Notes under the pieces: generated by a model
What the model was told of the DNA's origin: nothing
Database searches by the model: none
The model's input: the letters and a program-made list of their open reading frames with translations, nothing else
Assembly (NCBI GenBank): GCA_018399755.1
Contig: JAGYOE010000010.1
Span: 1 to 32,568 of the forward strand
Source: Bacilli bacterium
GTDB lineage: Bacteria; Bacillota_I; Bacilli_A; Izemoplasmatales; Hujiaoplasmataceae
DNA length: 32,568 nt
Direction of reading: 5' to 3'
Shown: in pieces, positions 6,715-32,568 of the stretch
Layout: the number at the start of each line of letters is the position of its first letter
Numbering within the stretch: position 1 is the stretch's first letter
Translations under genes and position numbers: made by a program

Positions 6715-7731
6715 TTAATAATGATTAGTAATAACCTCAGCAAATCCTAAAATATCTTTTACTTCTAAAGTTTCTTTACCAAGTTTAACCCTACCATTAA
6801 ATCTACCAAAAACTTGATGTCCAAGATTTTTAATAACTAAAAGGTTAGTATTATCTTTTCTATCATAAATCGGAGTCATTTTTAAATCAACACTTTTATC
6901 CTTTGATTTAATAGTCCAAGTATCTAAATAATCAAATTTATTTAAGGTGAATTCAACATCTTTTAATTTATAGCCTTTTCCATCATAAAACAACATATTT
7001 TCAGTTGCTTTTGAGTTGTCGCCAAAACCATAACCAAAATTAAAGCCAAAGCGTTTACCATCAATAACACCACAACCATTAGACCAATACCAGGTATTTT
7101 TATAAGTCCATACACCTCTACCCCAATCAAGTATAGCAAAATCTTTTTCTGGAGAATAGTTATATTCTTCTCCATCAAAATAAACCTTACCACTAACTGG
7201 CATACAATTAAGCTTTTGATTATAATAAAAAGCTTTAGGATTATCCTTCCAAGGTGTAGCTATTGTTAAATGATCTGAATCAAGTTTTTGTAATGATAAA
7301 TCTACTCGTAAATTTTTACGCTTAAATAGATTATTAACTTCAACAATTAAACGGCGTCGATTATCTTCATTTAAAAAGCGAAGATTAAAACCTTTCTTCT
7401 TAAAAGAAACATCACCTGAATTAATTGATTTAGGTAAATTTAGTTTACCAAACGGAAATAATACTTTCTTCTCCTTAGTATATTCTTTGCCCAGTAAAAA
7501 ATCAAAAAAACTTACTTTAATCAACCCTAAATAACCTAAATCAGCTATCGTAAAACTCAAAGAATAATCTTTAGAAAGAATAGCATAATAATCCCACTCT
7601 TTTATCCGCCATTTACTAGCTGAAATCATTTCAGGATTATACTCAAAAATTTCTGTAAAAGCATAGCCCGGTTCATTTAATCTACCAAACTTATCCAATA
7701 AAGGACGCTTGTTTTTTACCAAATGGTTCAT
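6715..7731 (-). CDS. DUF2804 family protein
   Basis: A 338-residue soluble protein of the DUF2804 family. Recognisable blocks are the N-terminal RPLLDKFGRLNEPGYA, the central ATPWKDNPKAFYYNQKLNCMP, and DWGRGVWTYKNTWYWSNGCG, with GFNFGYGFGD after it. No biochemical role is established for the family, and I do not assign one. The start has a strong GGAGG ribosome binding site. It is divergent from the membrane-GNAT gene and shares a roughly 110-bp intergenic region with it. The first third is repeated, frame-broken, at 9235-9543. Confidence 0.85.
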   Translation of the reverse strand: MNHLVKNKRPLLDKFGRLNEPGYAFTEIFEYNPEMISASKWRIKEWDYYAILSKDYSLSFTIADLGYLGLIKVSFFDFLLGKEYTKEKKVLFPFGKLNLPKSINSGDVSFKKKGFNLRFLNEDNRRRLIVEVNNLFKRKNLRVDLSLQKLDSDHLTIATPWKDNPKAFYYNQKLNCMPVSGKVYFDGEEYNYSPEKDFAILDWGRGVWTYKNTWYWSNGCGVIDGKRFGFNFGYGFGDNSKATENMLFYDGKGYKLKDVEFTLNKFDYLDTWTIKSKDKSVDLKMTPIYDRKDNTNLLVIKNLGHQVFGRFNGRVKLGKETLEVKDILGFAEVITNHY

Positions 7732-7807
7732 AAAATACCTCCAAACAATTTAAAAATATCAATATATTAATTTACCAAGATAAATCGGTTTTAATTTTTT
7801 TTTATTA

Positions 7808-23867: not shown

Positions 23868-24075
23868 AAAAAGAAGTCCTTTACTTTCTGTAAAGGACGA
23901 ATTACCCGCGATACCACCTTAGTTCTAGTTGCCTAGCACTTATATCTTTAACGCAGATATACGAAGATGATTAATCTTAACTCCAAGGTAGATAAAATAA
24001 TAACACTTATTAGTTTTCACCAACCACTAACTCTCTAGAAAGCTTATTATTTATTATCCTCTTCTTAGTCTTATT
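23868..24075 (-). promoter_or_regulatory. T-box riboswitch leader, serine type
   Basis: The leader carries the T-box element AAGGTGGTATCGCGGGT (23920-23904), followed by a terminator hairpin with 9-bp stem (23898-23890 with 23884-23876) and a T-run (23875-23868). Upstream is a long stem I region pairing AATAATAA with TTATTATT. A UCU serine codon followed by A at 23992-23990 is a plausible specifier. Uncharged tRNA-Ser would favour the antiterminator and read-through into serS and alr. The specifier assignment is inference; the T-box element and terminator are seen directly. Confidence 0.9.
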
Positions 24076-26443: not shown

Positions 26444-27661
26444 CTATTTCATTTTAGCAAACTTTTGAATTCCTTTATTAAATTTTGGCTTATTTTCACC
26501 TTTAATTAATGGCAAAGCATATTTCATAAACACACTTGTTACGCCGTTACCTTGTTTATTTATCATATTATCAGGCATTTTTTTCTCTTCATTTGCACAA
26601 GCACTTAAATTATAACCATCATAACTTACTGTGTAAGGATCTTCTTGTTCTCTTTTAATTATCACCATTAAATTATTTTGATTATTTAATGCTAATTCAA
26701 CTGCTTTTTCACCAACTTTTATTGCTTCATTAACATCAGTTAAGCTTTGAAAATGCGCAGCTGCTCTTTGTGAAGAAGATAATTCTACTGAACGAGTCGC
26801 AATTTTAAGTTCCCTAGTAACTAATTCTGCTAATTTAGCCGCAACCCCTCCTAATTGAGAATGTCCAAATTCATCAGTTGCTCTAGAACTAGAAAAAATA
26901 AACTCTCCTAATTCATTAACAATACCTTCTGAAACAGCAACTAAACATTTTTTATTTTCATTGTATATTTGTTTCACTTCTTTTTTAAACTTCGTAATTG
27001 AAAAAGGTTTTTCTGGCAAATAAATCAAATCAGGCCCAAAACCATTAATATTAGCAAGCGCTGAAGCAGCTGTTAACCATCCAGCATGTCTTCCCATTAT
27101 CTCTACAATTGTTACTTTACCAACAGGATAAGCTAGAGTATCATATGCTATTTCAGCAATTGTATTTGCGATATATTTTGCAGCACTACCATATCCAGGA
27201 GTATGATCAGTAAAAGGTAAGTCATTATCGATGGTTTTAGGAATACCAATAACTCTAATATCATAATCTTTTGTTTCCATAAAATTAGCTATCTTAGCAC
27301 AAGTGTCCATTGAATCATTTCCACCGTTATATAAAAAGAAGCGAATATTATATTTTTTAAACACAGCTAATAAACGTTCATAATCACTGTCATCATCCTT
27401 ATAATCTGCTAGCTTATATCTTATTGAACCAAAGGCTGAACCTGGGGTATGTTTTAATAACTCAATATTAGTTTTAGATTGTTCCTTTGCGTTAAAAAAC
27501 CTCTCTTGCAAAGCGCCTTGTATCCCATGTTTCATAATATAAATTTTGTCAATATCATTACTCTTTTTTGCGCTTTCTATAACTCCATATGCGCTTGCAT
27601 TTATCACTGAAGTTGGTCCTCCAGACTGCCCATATAATAAATTTCCGGTTAATTTTCTCAT
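26444..27661 (-). CDS. pfp: Pyrophosphate-dependent 6-phosphofructokinase
   Basis: Phosphorylates fructose 6-phosphate using PPi in a reversible step. In the 405-residue protein the phosphate-donor motif reads GGNDS with Asp at the position that is Gly in ATP enzymes, and the substrate loop reads PKTIDND with Lys in place of the Gly of ATP-type PGTIDND; both are hallmarks of PPi use. MGRHAGW is the fructose-6-phosphate motif. The start at 27661 has AAGGAG upstream. A PPi enzyme saves ATP in fermenters and suits an energy-limited organism. Confidence 0.9.
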   Translation of the reverse strand: MRKLTGNLLYGQSGGPTSVINASAYGVIESAKKSNDIDKIYIMKHGIQGALQERFFNAKEQSKTNIELLKHTPGSAFGSIRYKLADYKDDDSDYERLLAVFKKYNIRFFLYNGGNDSMDTCAKIANFMETKDYDIRVIGIPKTIDNDLPFTDHTPGYGSAAKYIANTIAEIAYDTLAYPVGKVTIVEIMGRHAGWLTAASALANINGFGPDLIYLPEKPFSITKFKKEVKQIYNENKKCLVAVSEGIVNELGEFIFSSSRATDEFGHSQLGGVAAKLAELVTRELKIATRSVELSSSQRAAAHFQSLTDVNEAIKVGEKAVELALNNQNNLMVIIKREQEDPYTVSYDGYNLSACANEEKKMPDNMINKQGNGVTSVFMKYALPLIKGENKPKFNKGIQKFAKMK

Positions 27662-27683
27662 CCTTAAAACTCCTTTTAGTAAT

Positions 27684-27712
27684 ATAATACCATATTTTAT
27701 AAATTTTGTTTA
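27684..27712 (-). promoter_or_regulatory. Promoter of pfp
   Basis: Minus strand TAAACA (27712-27707), 17-bp spacer, TATTAT (27689-27684) preceded by TGG (extended -10). Confidence 0.5.
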
Positions 27713-27715
27713 TAA

Positions 27716-27739
27716 AAAAAGGGTGAAATCACCCTTTTT
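27716..27739 (-). terminator. Terminator of tdh-kbl-DUF1648
   Basis: 10-bp stem (27716-27725 with 27730-27739, loop AAAT) with a T-run on the minus strand. Confidence 0.85.
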
Positions 27740-28028
27740 ATCCTACATTTATCACATATATTAAAATCTCTACTGCCACAATAACAACTGCACTAATATA
27801 CCATCTAATATAATCGGTGGAATTTTTTTCATCATAAAGTTGATATCCTACAAAAAAACTTAATAAAACAAAAACAATAATTACAAAAGTTTTTGAAAAT
27901 ACAGATTCAGAATCTCCAGATATATTAAATTGTACAACAATAGCACTTGGTAGATTTAATATAACTAAGGCAAAATAAACTAAAGATATTAAAACAAAAC
28001 CGATTAAAACAATATGATTTTTTTTCAT
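27738..28028 (-). CDS. Small membrane protein, DUF1648-like
   Basis: A 96-residue protein with three hydrophobic stretches (about 6-26, 46-63 and 73-94). Between the first two, VVQFNISGDSESVFSK resembles the DUF1648 loop (typically HFNxxGxxxxxxxK) found in SdpI-related proteins. It starts one base after the kbl stop and has no clear Shine-Dalgarno sequence, so translation probably depends on kbl. Function is unknown; immunity- or sensor-type roles known for SdpI cannot be assumed. Confidence 0.65.
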   Translation of the reverse strand: MKKNHIVLIGFVLISLVYFALVILNLPSAIVVQFNISGDSESVFSKTFVIIVFVLLSFFVGYQLYDEKNSTDYIRWYISAVVIVAVEILIYVINVG

Positions 28029-28029
28029 T

Positions 28030-29211
28030 TTATATAATGTTTAATTCTCGACCGACTTTTTCGATTTTTTCAACCGCAAAATCTAAATCTTTTTTTGTAT
28101 GCGCAGCCGATATCATACATCTTAATCTCCCTTTATTTTTTGGAACTGTAGGAAAAACAATCCCCGAAACAAATACTCCTTCAGCTAGTAATTTCTTAGA
28201 AAACTCCATGGTTAATGCATCTTTTCCCACCATAACTGGTGTAATAGGCGTTTCACTTTTACCAATATCAAAACCTAGTTTATCAAGCTTAGCTTTAAAA
28301 TATTTAGCATTTTCCCAAAGATTATCTGTATACTTAGTTGATTTCATTAGTAATTCTACAGATTTTAGCGTTGCGCCAATAGCTGCAGGTGGTAAAGCAG
28401 TTGAGAAAAGAATTGGTCTACCTCTGTGTAATAACCATTCTTTAACAACTTTTTTACTCGCCACATATCCACCTATAACTCCAATTGCTTTTGATAATGT
28501 TCCAATTATAAAATCAACTTGACCATGTAAATTAAAATGATCTACTGTTCCACGACCATTTTCTCCTAAAACTCCACTACCGTGGGCATCATCAACATAG
28601 GTCAAACAATTATATTTTTTAGCTAATTCAACCATTTTAGGTAACTTAGCTAAATCACCATCCATAGAAAAAACTCCATCTGTAATTATTAAAACATTAC
28701 TATAATCATCGCGTTTTTCTTTTAATATTCTTTCTAAATCATCCATATCGGAATGCTTATATATTGCTTTATCAGCTCTAGATAATCTAACGCCATCGAT
28801 AATAGAAGCATGATTAAGTTCATCAGAAACAATTAAATCGCCTTTATTTACGATTGCTTGAATTGCGCCAATATTACAGTTCAAACCTGATTGAAATACA
28901 GTTACCGCTTCTTCACGTTTAAACTCAGCTAATAATTCTTCTAATTGTTCTAATAATAATTGATTACCGACAATAGTTCTAACACTACCTGTTCCTGCAC
29001 CATAATCATTTATCGCTTGTTTTGCCGCTTCCATAACTTTTTTATCAGTTGCTAGTCCTAGATAGTTATTTGATGATAAATTAACAACTTCTTTACCATC
29101 AAGAGAAACGCGGTTATCACACGGACCCTCGTTAATTGGCAATGTGCGATATACTCCATCTTTTTTTAGTTGTTCAACTTGTTTTTCTAAATATTCTAGA
29201 TTATTACTCAT
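28030..29211 (-). CDS. kbl: 2-amino-3-ketobutyrate CoA ligase (glycine C-acetyltransferase)
   Basis: PLP enzyme splitting 2-amino-3-ketobutyrate with CoA into glycine and acetyl-CoA, the second step of threonine breakdown. The 393-residue protein shows the alpha-oxoamine synthase features [39 protein letters not shown] and the PLP lysine in [13 protein letters not shown]. The start is ATG 29211, which overlaps the tdh stop by 8 nt (ATGAGTAA) and has a GGAG nine bases upstream; an ATG three codons earlier lies inside that box. Confidence 0.94.
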
Positions 29212-30289
29212 TAATATCATCTCCTGGAATCAAAATTATTTTACCACAGTTTTTACTCTCCATAATCTCTGCGGCTTCAGTTATTTTATTTAAAGGAAAT
29301 TGGTGAGTTACTATCTTATCTAAATTAAGTAAATCATTAGAAACCAAGTATTTCACCTTTTCCCAAGTTTGATATATTCTTCTACCAACAACTCCATAGA
29401 TATTTATACCTTTAAACACAATATCATTTGCTAAATCTATTTCAATATTATCATTTGGCAAGCCAAGCATTGACATACCTCCGCCTGGTTTAATATATTT
29501 AAAAGCTGTTTCAATCGCTTTAATATTCCCAGAAAATTCACAAATCACATCCGCGCCTTTGCCATTAGTATATTCCATAACCTTTTCTAAGACATCTTCT
29601 TCAAGCGGATTAATAATATGATCAGCATTTAAATCTTTTGCAATATTTCTTCGATATTGATTTACCTCAATAGCAATCACTTTCTTTGCGCCATAAGCCT
29701 TTGCGACATCTATTCCCATTAAACCAATTGGACCACAACCCAAAATTACAACAGATTTATTCTTTATTGGAAAATGTGTAACAGTATGAACAGCATTACC
29801 TAAAGGCTCTTGAACTGATAAATAGGTCTTATCTTCAACATCATTATTAACAATACAATTTGCGGCTGGAATTTTTATATAACTAGCAAAACAACCATCT
29901 CTATGAACACCAATAATTTCAGTATTTTCACAAATATGTCCTTCTCCCCTTAAACAAAACTCACATTCATTACAAATAATATGTGTTTCCGCACTAACAA
30001 TATCTCCGATATTTAAACTAGGAACATCATCTGCCATTTTAATTATTTCGCCACTAAATTCATGACCAACTATAAGTGGTAAATTTAAGTGTGTCCTAGC
30101 CCAATTATCATATCGATAAATATGAGAATCAGTGCCACAAAAAGATACACTTTTAATTTTAATTAAAACCTCACCAGGTTTAAGATCAGTTGAAAGTTTT
30201 ACTTTTTTATAAGAAAAACCCTTTTTTGGCTTCTCTTTAATAACAGCCATCATCTCTAATTCTTTAATATTTTCGCTTAATGGTTTCAT
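29204..30289 (-). CDS. tdh: L-threonine 3-dehydrogenase
   Basis: Zinc-dependent medium-chain dehydrogenase oxidising threonine with NAD to 2-amino-3-ketobutyrate, the substrate of Kbl. In the 361-residue protein the catalytic zinc ligands lie in [13 protein letters not shown] and GHEFSGE; the structural zinc cysteines are in [15 protein letters not shown]. The NAD motif is [20 protein letters not shown] 30289 has a good AAAGGAG box; homologues begin about 13 residues later. The direct pairing with kbl makes threonine the likely substrate; other secondary alcohols are less likely. Confidence 0.93.
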
Positions 30290-30326
30290 TAAAATCTCCT
30301 TTATTATTATTATCAATCACAAAGTT

Positions 30327-30335
30327 ATTATAACA
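30327..30335 (-). promoter_or_regulatory. Extended -10 of the tdh-kbl operon
   Basis: Minus strand TGTTATAAT (30335-30327), a perfect extended -10; no clear -35. Confidence 0.55.
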
Positions 30336-30370
30336 CAATTTTCTAGCGTTATTAAAGGTCAAATTCAAAA

Positions 30371-30399
30371 AAAAAGAAAAAGCTGAAAGCCTTTTCTTT
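30371..30399 (-). terminator. Terminator of the GyrI-like gene
   Basis: 11-bp stem with one mismatch (30373-30383 with 30389-30399, loop TGAAA) followed by a T-run on the minus strand. Confidence 0.75.
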
Positions 30400-30874
30400 A
30401 TTCTTCTAATTTAAAGCAAAGATATAATAAATCATTATTAAAATGAGATTTACCATTAACCGAGTAATCTTCAACATGAAAACCTAAATGTACATTTAAA
30501 TTCTCATTTTCAACATAACGATATACCCGTTTGATTTCATTAGAAATATCATCTCTTTTTATAGGAAACTGAATATATTTTCCTTTTGGTAATTTTTTAG
30601 TAACTAAATTTTCTTCTACTTCAACCAAGCCATCTGTTTCCACCAAAGCATAATAATCAACAGTTTTGCTTTCCATGAAATCAAAACGATAAATTTCTAA
30701 ACCAATATAACTTATTGGGTCTTTTTTATTATTTATTTCATCTAAATATACATTTTCTAATTCTTCCCATAGACCTGGTATTTTCTTTTTATCAGGTGAA
30801 TCAATCTTAAAGCCGCCAATAAGTTCTATACCAGCAAAATATCTTGTCTCATAATCTTTAACAATATACTCCAT
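30398..30874 (-). CDS. GyrI-like / AraC effector-binding domain protein
   Basis: A stand-alone 158-residue protein of the GyrI-like small-molecule-binding family (effector-binding domain of AraC/MerR regulators). It starts MEYIVKDYETRYFAGIEL, has YIGLEIYRFDF in the middle, and KLPKGKYIQFPIK followed by the C-terminal DLLYLCFKLEE. No DNA-binding domain is present, so it acts as a stand-alone binder, perhaps of hydrophobic cations as in known members. It has its own consensus promoter and terminator. Confidence 0.75.
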   Translation of the reverse strand: MEYIVKDYETRYFAGIELIGGFKIDSPDKKKIPGLWEELENVYLDEINNKKDPISYIGLEIYRFDFMESKTVDYYALVETDGLVEVEENLVTKKLPKGKYIQFPIKRDDISNEIKRVYRYVENENLNVHLGFHVEDYSVNGKSHFNNDLLYLCFKLEE

Positions 30875-30893
30875 TTAGACCACCTCTAATATA

Positions 30894-30921
30894 ATTATAT
30901 ATTATCAATTATTGATGTCAA
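30894..30921 (-). promoter_or_regulatory. Promoter of the GyrI-like gene
   Basis: Minus strand TTGACA (30921-30916), 16-bp spacer, TATAAT (30899-30894). Confidence 0.75.
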
Positions 30922-30929
30922 TATCTAAA

Positions 30930-31445
30930 CTAATTTAAATCTAAATCACTATAAATTTTATCAACAAATTTTTTCTTGTCTCTTAAATAATTTTTTATTC
31001 CTTCAGGTTTTACTTTAGAAGCTTCACTTTTAATTCTATTAAATTCTTCTCTTAATTTTTTATTGTTTCTTAAATAATCACGAAAGCCAATATGTCTTTT
31101 TAATTCCTTTGAATCTTTTGTACATACATATAAATGACGTCTCATTAATCCGTCATTACCAGAATAATAAAATGCCTCACGATCTTTAATACCCAAATCG
31201 CCTTGATAAATATATCCTATAGAAGCTAATCTTTCCTTGATAATTGGAAACACTTTATAATCAGGTATCACAACAATTATATCAATTATTGGCTTAGCAG
31301 AAAGCCCAGGAATTGATGTTGAACCAACATGTTCAATTTCTAATGCTAAATCAGTTAATACAGTTTCTAAATTGCTTTTTATTTTCTTGAATTCAGCTTC
31401 CCATTTTTTATCATAATTTTTTAAAACTACTTTTTTTCTTAACAT
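30930..31445 (-). CDS. GrpB/UPF0157 family nucleotidyltransferase-like protein
   Basis: A 171-residue protein of the GrpB family (nucleotidyltransferase fold). The core is EIEHVGSTSIPGLSAKPIIDI, with the GS and paired D residues of the fold, and RRHLYVCTKDSKELKRHIGFRDYLR follows. Length and motifs are typical; no substrate is known for the family. The AAGGAAG box supports the start at 31445. Confidence 0.88.
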   Translation of the reverse strand: MLRKKVVLKNYDKKWEAEFKKIKSNLETVLTDLALEIEHVGSTSIPGLSAKPIIDIIVVIPDYKVFPIIKERLASIGYIYQGDLGIKDREAFYYSGNDGLMRRHLYVCTKDSKELKRHIGFRDYLRNNKKLREEFNRIKSEASKVKPEGIKNYLRDKKKFVDKIYSDLDLN

Positions 31446-31464
31446 AATCTTCCTTCCCCTAACT

Positions 31465-31492
31465 ATTATAACATATAATAAACAATTGTAAA
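31465..31492 (-). promoter_or_regulatory. Promoter of the GrpB-family gene
   Basis: Minus strand TTTACA (31492-31487), 16-bp spacer, TATAAT (31470-31465) with TGT in front (extended -10). The rest of 31493-31588 is AT-rich with nothing recognisable. Confidence 0.65.
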
Positions 31493-31588
31493 TTTAGTCT
31501 TAAATCTAATTATATTATAAAAAAGTTATAAATTAACTCATAAAAATAAAGCAGAATACATTTTAGGTACTCTTCTATAAATATAAAA

Positions 31589-31637
31589 TGGAGCAAGCGA
31601 GGGGAATTGAACCACCATTCTCTGCATGGCAAGCAAA
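31589..31637 (-). repeat. 3' half of a tRNA-Gly (GCC), possible attachment-site remnant
   Basis: On the minus strand the sequence runs from an anticodon stem-loop TTTGC-TTGCCAT-GCAGA (anticodon GCC), through a T-loop GTTCAATTC, to CGCTTGC-T-CCA, where the U discriminator fits tRNA-Gly. The bases before it do not form a D-arm or the matching acceptor strand GCAAGCG. What remains is the anticodon stem-loop to the 3' end, the stretch typically duplicated when a tyrosine-recombinase element inserts in a tRNA gene. Confidence 0.6.
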
Positions 31638-31652
31638 TCTATTAATCAATAC

Positions 31653-31674
31653 AAACGCCTAAAAGAAGGTGTTT
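31653..31674 (-). terminator. Hairpin beside the tRNA-Gly remnant
   Basis: 8-bp inverted repeat AAACGCCT and AGGTGTTT (one G-U pair), 6-nt loop. The T-run is poor. Terminator or element-end structure. Confidence 0.4.
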
Positions 31675-31695
31675 ATATAATATATTATTTAGTTT

Positions 31696-31727
31696 GACCC
31701 TTATTTTAACCCTTGTTTGGCCCTTGT
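31696..31727. repeat. Three short CCCTT repeats at helical spacing
   Basis: ACCCTT, ACCCTT and GCCCTT start at 31697, 31709 and 31720, 12 and 11 bp apart, each followed by T-rich sequence. They lie about 60 bp from the tRNA-Gly remnant, so they may be arm-type recombinase sites. The interval 31638-31831 holds no open gene. Confidence 0.4.
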
Positions 31728-31772
31728 AAATTTAATGATTTTTTCCTTGATTAATTATCATAAAAAGATTGT

Positions 31773-31795
31773 ACCATCAGATTGATGGTTTTTCT
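31773..31795 (+). terminator. Hairpin after the GNAT gene
   Basis: 7-bp stem ACCATCA/TGATGGT (31773-31779 with 31783-31789, loop GAT). A T-run follows on the plus strand; on the minus strand, where the GNAT gene ends at 31832, a T-run appears five bases after the stem, so it may serve that gene. Confidence 0.45.
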
Positions 31796-31831: not shown

Positions 31832-32329
31832 CTACAAATTAATCCTGAAAATTAAATGTTCCTGGTTATGTTCAACTATCTCACCTTGTAATACACCACC
31901 ATTTTTGATGATTACTTTATTACTGATAATGTTGCTTTTTGAACAAGTAATAAGTATAGGATTAATATCTAACTTCTTAGTTATCTGTAACGCTTTTCTT
32001 AACGCTAAAGTAGCATATCCTTTATTTCTTTCACTAGGTCTTACTGAATAGCCAATATGACCTGCTGTATACCATTCTTTTGGTAAATGATGTCTAATAT
32101 CAATAATACCTACCATTTTATCAGCTACCATACACATATAGGTGGATGACTGTATTCTTTTAGTGGACTTCCCTAATACTATTTTTTCAATCTCATCAAA
32201 CCAATCATCAAGATTAGAATAATTATGAATTCCACAGCTACCGTTTACTTTATTTTGGTATTTTAAATACTCATTTTTGTAATCTTGTATAATATTCTTG
32301 TATTTCCTAGATACTTGCACTAATTTCAT
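31832..32329 (-). CDS. GNAT family N-acetyltransferase
   Basis: A 165-residue acetyltransferase. The acetyl-CoA loop is RPSERNKGYATLAL (R-N-K-G-Y-A), preceded by HIGYSVRP, and the C-terminus has KVIIKNGGVLQGEI, as in RimJ/RimL-like and streptothricin-acetyltransferase-like GNATs. The substrate is not known. ATG 32329 is chosen because GAGG lies eight bases upstream; an ATG at 32344 overlaps that box. Its position next to a toxin gene and a tRNA remnant suggests accessory DNA. Confidence 0.85.
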   Translation of the reverse strand: MKLVQVSRKYKNIIQDYKNEYLKYQNKVNGSCGIHNYSNLDDWFDEIEKIVLGKSTKRIQSSTYMCMVADKMVGIIDIRHHLPKEWYTAGHIGYSVRPSERNKGYATLALRKALQITKKLDINPILITCSKSNIISNKVIIKNGGVLQGEIVEHNQEHLIFRINL

Positions 32330-32374
32330 ACTTTTTTGCCTCATTATTCTATTTAAATACCCAAATTACTATTG

Positions 32375-32568
32375 TCATAATCTTTTTAATATATCGTGAT
32401 GGCCGATGTCTAACATTAATATTAAGTTTTCATCTTGATATGTCCATATTACACGTATAGACATATTTATGCTAGACTCAAACAAAATCTCACTGCCCTT
32501 AATCTTTTTTGTTCGAAGACTTGGATGTTTATGGTTTTCAATAAATATAGATAACTTCCTATAGAACA
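32375..32568 (-). CDS. RelE/ParE-family toxin, 3' part (cut by window edge)
   Basis: An open frame enters from the right edge on the minus strand and ends at TGA 32375. The visible 64 residues include HPSLRTKKIKGSEILFES, SINMSIRVIWTY and LDIGHHDILKRL, the C-terminal pattern of RelE/YoeB/HigB-type mRNA interferases and ParE relatives. An antitoxin gene would be expected beyond the window. The start is outside, so its length is unknown. Confidence 0.75.
   Translation of the reverse strand, partial: FYRKLSIFIENHKHPSLRTKKIKGSEILFESSINMSIRVIWTYQDENLILMLDIGHHDILKRL

Follow-up and report, generated by a model that had tools for sequence, protein, structure and literature searches.

At its right end the window, which is the whole stretch of 32,568 nucleotides analysed here, most likely contains the outermost part of a tandem array of small cassettes that carry no integrase, are lodged in the 3′ part of a tRNA-Gly(GCC) gene and would be worked in trans. 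The window is the whole of contig C2 of a 1.23-Mb assembly that is 80% complete, and the contig ends at 32568. A reading made from the sequence alone had already suspected an integrated element here. By sequence comparison, the site is moreover a member of a repeated family that bounds tandem cassettes without integrase. On the minus strand, from the right end, the order is cut ORF, GNAT, terminator-like hairpin, three repeats, hairpin, tRNA half, GrpB, GyrI-like, alcohol dehydrogenase and aminotransferase genes. The features at the junction are:

30398–30874, minus: GyrI-like/Cass2 gene of the chromosomal flank, found directly behind tRNA-Gly in genome G004
30930–31445, minus: GrpB-family gene (Pfam), in the flank beyond the junction
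31589–31637, minus: 3′ half of tRNA-Gly(GCC), anticodon stem to CCA, an attR-like far attachment half-site
31649–31678, minus: hairpin between repeats and core, 11 pairs and one mismatch
31693–31702, minus: probable arm-type repeat 3, AAGGGTCAAA, starting at 31702
31705–31714, minus: probable arm-type repeat 2, AAGGGTTAAA, starting at 31714
31716–31725, minus: probable arm-type repeat 1, AAGGGCCAAA, starting at 31725
31773–31789, minus: terminator-like inverted repeat between the GNAT gene and the repeats
31832–32344, minus: GNAT acetyltransferase, a cassette gene (Pfam PF13302, PF00583)
32375–32566, minus: cassette ORF cut by the contig end; in G003 and G001 it is the partner ORF of a MazE-type antitoxin

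The tRNA half reaches its CCA end at 31589, as the sequence-only reading had it: 46 of 49 nucleotides (minus strand, 31637–31589) are identical to the intact tRNA-Gly(GCC) of the related genome G003, and 5′ of these last 49 nucleotides the match drops to background. The intact tRNA-Gly genes of G001, G003 and G004 all match the window half in blastn (E about 1e-16 to 6e-18). The stem-loop and the three CCCTT repeats described by that reading were also recovered, the repeats being AAGGG-type on the minus strand with spacings of 11 and 12; they are probable arm-type integrase sites. A 71-nt stretch around the hairpin folds better than 199 of 200 shuffled versions (z −2.9), and the 144-nt site taken whole folds no better than shuffled sequence (113 of 200 shuffles at least as good). 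Sequences resembling ACCATCA..TGATGGT precede several sites in G002 and G004, as seen by eye. A match to STnc290 at 31520–31578 reached 22 bits where the cut-off is 60 and was taken as chance, and a T-box leader at 23890–24075 (Rfam, 108 bits), upstream of a seryl-tRNA synthetase gene, is ordinary.

The GNAT gene that had been proposed next to the repeats is borne out by its Pfam matches, and G003 keeps a piece of it adjoining the same partner ORF. The proposal of a toxin gene beyond it stands in weaker form. The cut ORF shares 92% of amino acids over 63 residues with its counterpart in G003 and 83% over 46 with that in G001, and MazE adjoins the copies of this ORF at loci L066 and L068. A toxin identity is plausible because the G003 copy adjoins a MazE-type antitoxin gene; that copy is complete and has no Pfam match.

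Compared with relatives, the right edge looks like an integration junction. In G004, tRNA-Gly is directly followed by the GyrI-ADH-aminotransferase block of the window's flank, with no site between and without GrpB (window 26482–30874 corresponds to L070 25–4431, 75%). In G003, cassettes lie between tRNA-Gly and the same block with GrpB, and window 28452–31519 is collinear with L066 1–3071 at 81.7%. Between GrpB and the outermost site, G003 also has about 4 kb (L066 3071–7060) that are absent from the window, and this stretch has no tRNA half at its far end. In G001, other genes stand behind tRNA-Gly, and there is no site. At the other side of the junction, window 32203–32566 matches the outermost unit of the G003 array (89.6% over 364 bp), and G003 has two further sites between this unit and its tRNA-Gly. 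In the window's own assembly, 80% complete, we found neither a tRNA-Gly(GCC), nor a relative of the gene that neighbours this tRNA upstream, nor a relative of MazE. The second copy of the tRNA segment expected by the sequence-only reading is thus absent from the own, incomplete genome, and the arrangement is not the same in all relatives.

Five genomes of the genus, the own genome (G000) and G001 to G004, were compared for such sites, and 19 were found (G000 one, G001 one, G002 12, G003 three, G004 two). Fourteen carry a half of tRNA-Val(GAC): six on contig C7, three on C4 and one on C43 of G002, a degenerate one in G003, two in G004 and one in G001. The other five carry a half of tRNA-Gly(GCC), namely the window site, two on C43 of G002 and two in G003. 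With 31560–31760 as a 201-nt query (E ≤ 0.01), the own genome gives a single match and the four others give 2, 15, 3 and 3, counts that take in intact tRNA-Gly genes and split pieces of one site. A search with a Val site gave no more places beyond intact tRNA-Val genes and the repeat pair by an integrase remnant.

Counted from the CCA end, the repeats begin at −138, −127 and −115 in 10 of the 14 Val sites; the exceptions are one site of G004, the degenerate one of G003 and two on C4 in which the arm is lost or shortened. Four of the five Gly sites, window included, fall within 1 base of these positions, and G003 site 9437 is without the first repeat. The full three-repeat layout is thereby present, within 1 base, in 14/19 sites, scored with up to two substitutions per repeat. 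Identity to the cognate tRNA over the 19 sites is 0.21–0.46 up to −57, 0.67–0.74 at −56 to −49 and 0.92–0.97 from −48 (the reference was the G003 tRNA-Gly for the window, the G001 tRNA-Gly for the Gly sites of G002 and the G002 tRNA-Val for the Val copy of G003, since in these three cases the own tRNA lies outside the stretches examined). Such a step at the anticodon stem is what a crossover in the anticodon region would leave. Among 90 genomes of the order, the exact AAGGGTCAAA pair is confined to four, each from this genus, with 24 matches when overlapping pairs are included; its reversed control has none in the 90. The window's own pair has two substitutions and so is not among the 24. A looser repeat pattern showed no arrays outside the genus in the 90 genomes (one control-pattern match).

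Support from conservation of the hairpin is mixed. With an 8-pair helix taken from the window's own fold, 81.9% of cells over the 19 sites (one without the 5′ arm) are paired. The covariation score is 0.191; shuffles average 0.134, with 4 of 500 attaining the observed value, and the best of six slid versions scores 0.110. In 11 sequences, however, one of the pairs is non-standard, and the count of pairs in which both sides have changed is unremarkable (232 of 500 shuffles).

In the relatives, the sites stand in tandem behind the tRNA, and the units between them mostly hold one to three genes. Contig C7 of G002 has six sites behind tRNA-Val, C4 has three more Val sites, and C43 has two Gly sites and one Val site. 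From neighbouring genes we infer that C4 and C7 form one array and that C43 belongs to a tRNA-Gly array. In G003 the tRNA-Gly is followed by sites 9437 (Gly), 9237 (degenerate Val) and 7060 (Gly), and a tRNA-Val is followed by two sites in G004 and one in G001. Intact tRNA and far copies thus lie on one contig in G002 (Val), G003 (Gly), G004 (Val) and G001 (Val); the window contig holds the far copy only, so that one side of its unit is visible. The 16 CCA-to-CCA intervals measure, in bp:

915, 2073, 1152, 1664, 1722, 1682, 1978, 1813, 218, 3102, 1625, 200, 2177, 1694, 2613, 5272

Fourteen of these are full-size units (915–5272 bp, median about 1.8 kb) and two are of about 200 bp. Within the units, 26 of 28 ORFs (at least 60 aa, greedy non-overlap rule) are co-oriented with the tRNA, the exceptions being an integrase remnant and a 63-aa ORF. 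That remnant, a broken gene on C43, is the integrase of the single full-size unit in 14 that has one, and is the sole recombinase among the 24 ORFs (all but four small ones) scanned with Pfam. When the five genomes were searched for PF00589, no other match lay at an array. Nor did the genomes of the genus yield an intact copy of the likely recombinase, and the 24 scanned ORFs include no conjugative-transfer gene. Named contents of the cassettes are a MazE antitoxin, AAA_14/DUF4143, an Imm5-like protein, Big_14, an ABC transporter and GGDEF-HD; the ten C7 ORFs have no Pfam match at E ≤ 0.001. Cassette ORFs of about 390–415 aa were considered as integrases and rejected, since Pfam gives AAA_14/DUF4143, GGDEF-HD or nothing for them. 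The AAA_14/DUF4143 protein at L066 9653–10843 in G003 matches the PADLOC defence candidate PDC-S01 (E 3e-125), and a second copy lies at L067 9122–10312.

Two cassette types are shared between species in which they stand behind different tRNAs, and their sequences are more alike than the surrounding chromosome. The AAA_14/DUF4143 cassette is found behind tRNA-Gly in G003 and behind tRNA-Val in G004, with 90% identity for the protein and 85.4% for DNA over 1415 bp; the similarity runs from about 115 bp past the CCA of the G003 tRNA to its repeats, and pieces of the tRNA-Gly flank of these two genomes are 77.6, 69.8 and 65.8% identical. The MazE cassette stands behind Gly in G003 and Val in G001 (MazE protein 91%, DNA 81.4% over 1036 bp; flanks 78.6 and 68.8%). 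The window end, a Gly case, is 89.4% identical to the Val case of G001 over 226 bp with a flank at 76.0%, and its 89.6% match to G003, also Gly, compares with 81.7% for the flank. A Gly site followed by a Val site within about 200 bp was found at L065 7903–8264 (C43 of G002) and at L066 9237–9568 (G003); these pairs, from two species, are possibly composite units and may be the route by which cassettes change tRNA. It counts against the array reading that, of the seven bases of the anticodon loop, two are not the same in Val and Gly.

In the mechanism that we propose, the genes of each cassette would be followed by direct repeats, three at most, in most cases by a hairpin, and by a tRNA 3′ half that spans the anticodon stem to the CCA. 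Such a cassette, presumably after excision as a circle, would insert by a crossover in the anticodon region, and the tRNA would be restored with the cassette's own 3′ half. The old half would be pushed outward, and successive insertions would yield an array that is read in the direction of the tRNA. In the window's own organism the rest of the array would then lie past the contig end, on its upstream side. The recombinase acting in trans would most likely be a tyrosine integrase of a family found on 22–25 kb elements in two other genera.

The evidence for this family starts from the broken integrase on C43 (L065, about 6950–7790), which adjoins two repeats. Relatives of it are present in 8 of the 90 genomes of the order, one each and itself included (E ≤ 1e-8), and five of the seven outside the genus were examined (G013, G014, G029, G034 and G037). 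In G013, G014 and G029 a tandem GxGTCAA pair lies at the 3′ end of the integrase gene, in G013 and G014 as two tandem GTGTCAA repeats and in G029 with one substitution. Past the pair there is a terminator-like hairpin (by eye) and then a tRNA 3′ end (Thr in G013, Pro in G014 and G029). The G037 integrase has a weaker pair (two substitutions, by eye) beside tRNA-Glu, and that of G034 has neither repeat pair nor tRNA 3′ end. At the far ends of the G013 and G014 elements, 25.2 and 22.5 kb away, a pair of repeats is followed by a spacer and then by the 3′ half of a tRNA, which starts at the anticodon stem. By distances taken by hand, GTGTCAAA stands there at −125/−113 and −126/−114, respectively, and GGGTCAAA of the cassettes at −125/−113. 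That these elements have two repeats and not three counts against the link to a driver, and no hairpin is evident by eye in their spacers. Each element carries a long integrase ORF, in which Pfam finds Phage_integrase. From 37 ORFs of at least 90 aa on the two elements (L192–L193, L212–L217), 14 were scanned, giving the integrase, a phage-type replication initiation match, a repressor-like protein, an AlwI-type restriction enzyme, two DNA methylases and a SIR2-like protein; no phage structural gene is among these 14. Further recombinases of G004 and G003 (L197–L200) have no GxGTCAA pair on the stretches examined when one substitution is allowed.

Outside the genus, the AAGGGTCAAA pair is present in 62 loci (57 of 64 genome stretches and five viral contigs). 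Within 500 bp of the pair, 18 loci have an integrase, 17 a tRNA or tmRNA and 10 both, against 7.9, 3.3 and 1.3 for positions drawn at random in these loci. This excess favours such repeats as integrase sites in general; the 44 loci in which no integrase was detected within 500 bp count against a direct link. Orientation weakens this wider control. Outside the order, repeats and integrase share a strand in 13 of 18 loci (four opposite, one mixed), and the tRNA is on the strand opposite to the repeats in 15 of 17. The genus shows the reverse, with the repeats in the direction of the tRNA and opposed to the integrase, and G013 and G014 share this orientation. The loci with both a tyrosine integrase and a tRNA within 500 bp, oriented opposite to the genus, are L126, L128, L133, L142, L148, L166, L170, L177, L180 and L183. 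A repeat pair by an integrase in the orientation of the genus was seen at L116 and L119 (viral contigs), L139 and L165, which are possible relatives of the driver type. Two of the five viral contigs have an integrase within 500 bp of the pair, and neither the array integrase nor the AAA_14 cassette protein has a relative on the viral contigs. Phage and plasmid collections gave partial matches only, covering 20–31% of a Val site at its tRNA end.

The strongest rival of the array reading, which we nevertheless hold to be unlikely, is that the units do not move as cassettes and are relics of full-size prophages or integrative elements, which arrived in succession and lost their integrase by deletion (tandem CIMEs). 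The unit of G002 with a broken integrase beside two repeats would fit such a dead accretion well, as would the degenerate state of the G003 sites 7060 and 9237 and the lack of a dedicated integrase in G001. This single-contig genome has a site but just two PF00589 proteins, both of Xer size, so that the arrays may be relics there. Yet 13 of 14 full-size units are without a PF00589 match, 12 of 14 are of 0.9–2.7 kb with co-oriented ORFs, and accretion of decayed elements accords poorly with two cassette kinds that stand behind different tRNAs in different species and are more alike than their flanks.

It is quite improbable that the window end is just the scar left by one ordinary integrated element in an organism that has no array. 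The own genome does show one site only, but its contig ends inside a cassette whose end matches the outermost unit of G003, where two more sites follow towards the tRNA. A functional tRNA-like RNA gene, or a regulatory leader with a hairpin, can be practically dismissed. The Rfam tRNA model matches the window half over its full length, but poorly (17.4 bits, under the cut-off of 29), ARAGORN calls no tRNA there, 31589–31660 folds no better than shuffled sequence (165 of 200 shuffles at least as good), and the identity to the tRNA is lost 5′ of the anticodon stem; on ARAGORN, Rfam score and fold test together, a functional tRNA or leader at this place was rejected.

A further step beyond the array reading, which we take only tentatively and with more doubt than belief, would be that the genus keeps an integron-like system in which tRNA genes take the place of attC and the integrase comes from passing elements. 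Each standardised, gene-sized cassette would have an arm of three repeats, a hairpin and a tRNA 3′ half that can be swapped. The cassettes would be captured in order behind tRNA-Val and tRNA-Gly, and their cargo would comprise toxin-antitoxin-like, candidate defence, acetyltransferase, immunity-like and many unknown genes. If the cassettes do move, a lineage related to mycoplasmas gathers accessory genes in the manner of integrons, without a recombinase of its own and tied to two tRNA genes. The definition of the site is sufficient for array searches in metagenomes and for a direct test of the candidate integrase. Where a contig ends at a truncated tRNA, moreover, this can be the sign that a variable array has been broken there.

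Small cassettes at tRNAs and stacked islands without integrase are already known elsewhere. For Izemoplasma/Izimaplasma, the titles and abstract openings of the literature matches listed report no such arrays, which is weak evidence. Additive flexible genomic islands at tRNA genes have been described in Ca. Actinomarinales (PMC7771536) and Ca. Methylopumilus (PMC10872708). According to the accessible text, the former are small tRNA-targeted cassettes exchanged between genera (PMC7771536), and the latter have tRNA-Lys repeats with 20 nt tRNA fragments and mostly unknown genes (PMC10872708). Unlike here, the accessible portions of both papers mention no shared array of arm sites, no integrase family and no cassette common to two tRNA targets. 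In Dehalococcoides, as far as the available text goes, ssrA islands stand in tandem, bounded by a 20-bp repeat of the RNA gene, and 15 of them are without integration module and are possible cis-mobilizable elements (PMC3146451). They are alike in being tandem units bounded by an RNA-gene repeat, partly without integration module, and differ in having a serine recombinase and tmRNA as target, whereas here the sites are of the tyrosine-integrase type, the tRNAs are two and the units mostly hold one to three genes (PMC3146451).

In the accretion of CIMEs and IMEs, as outlined in the available part of PMC5704250, integration genes are lost, attL and attR are kept, and elements are stacked site-specifically, also at tRNA genes. 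The features of such an array, namely units without integrase, att on both sides and tandem order, are seen in the relatives, but CIMEs are described there as decayed ICEs or IMEs (PMC5704250), in contrast to the many gene-sized, co-oriented units of similar length found here. Integrons and CALINs are arrays in which each cassette has a recombination site; CALINs have no integrase and need one in trans, and other helper-dependent elements besides CALINs are also known, according to the accessible text of PMC11389934. Their site is an attC, in contrast to the repeats plus a tRNA half found here. Compared with the insertion of a tyrosine-integrase element at a tRNA 3′ end, the far tRNA copy and the uninterrupted site in a relative are alike, and the difference is that there the integrase is carried on the element.
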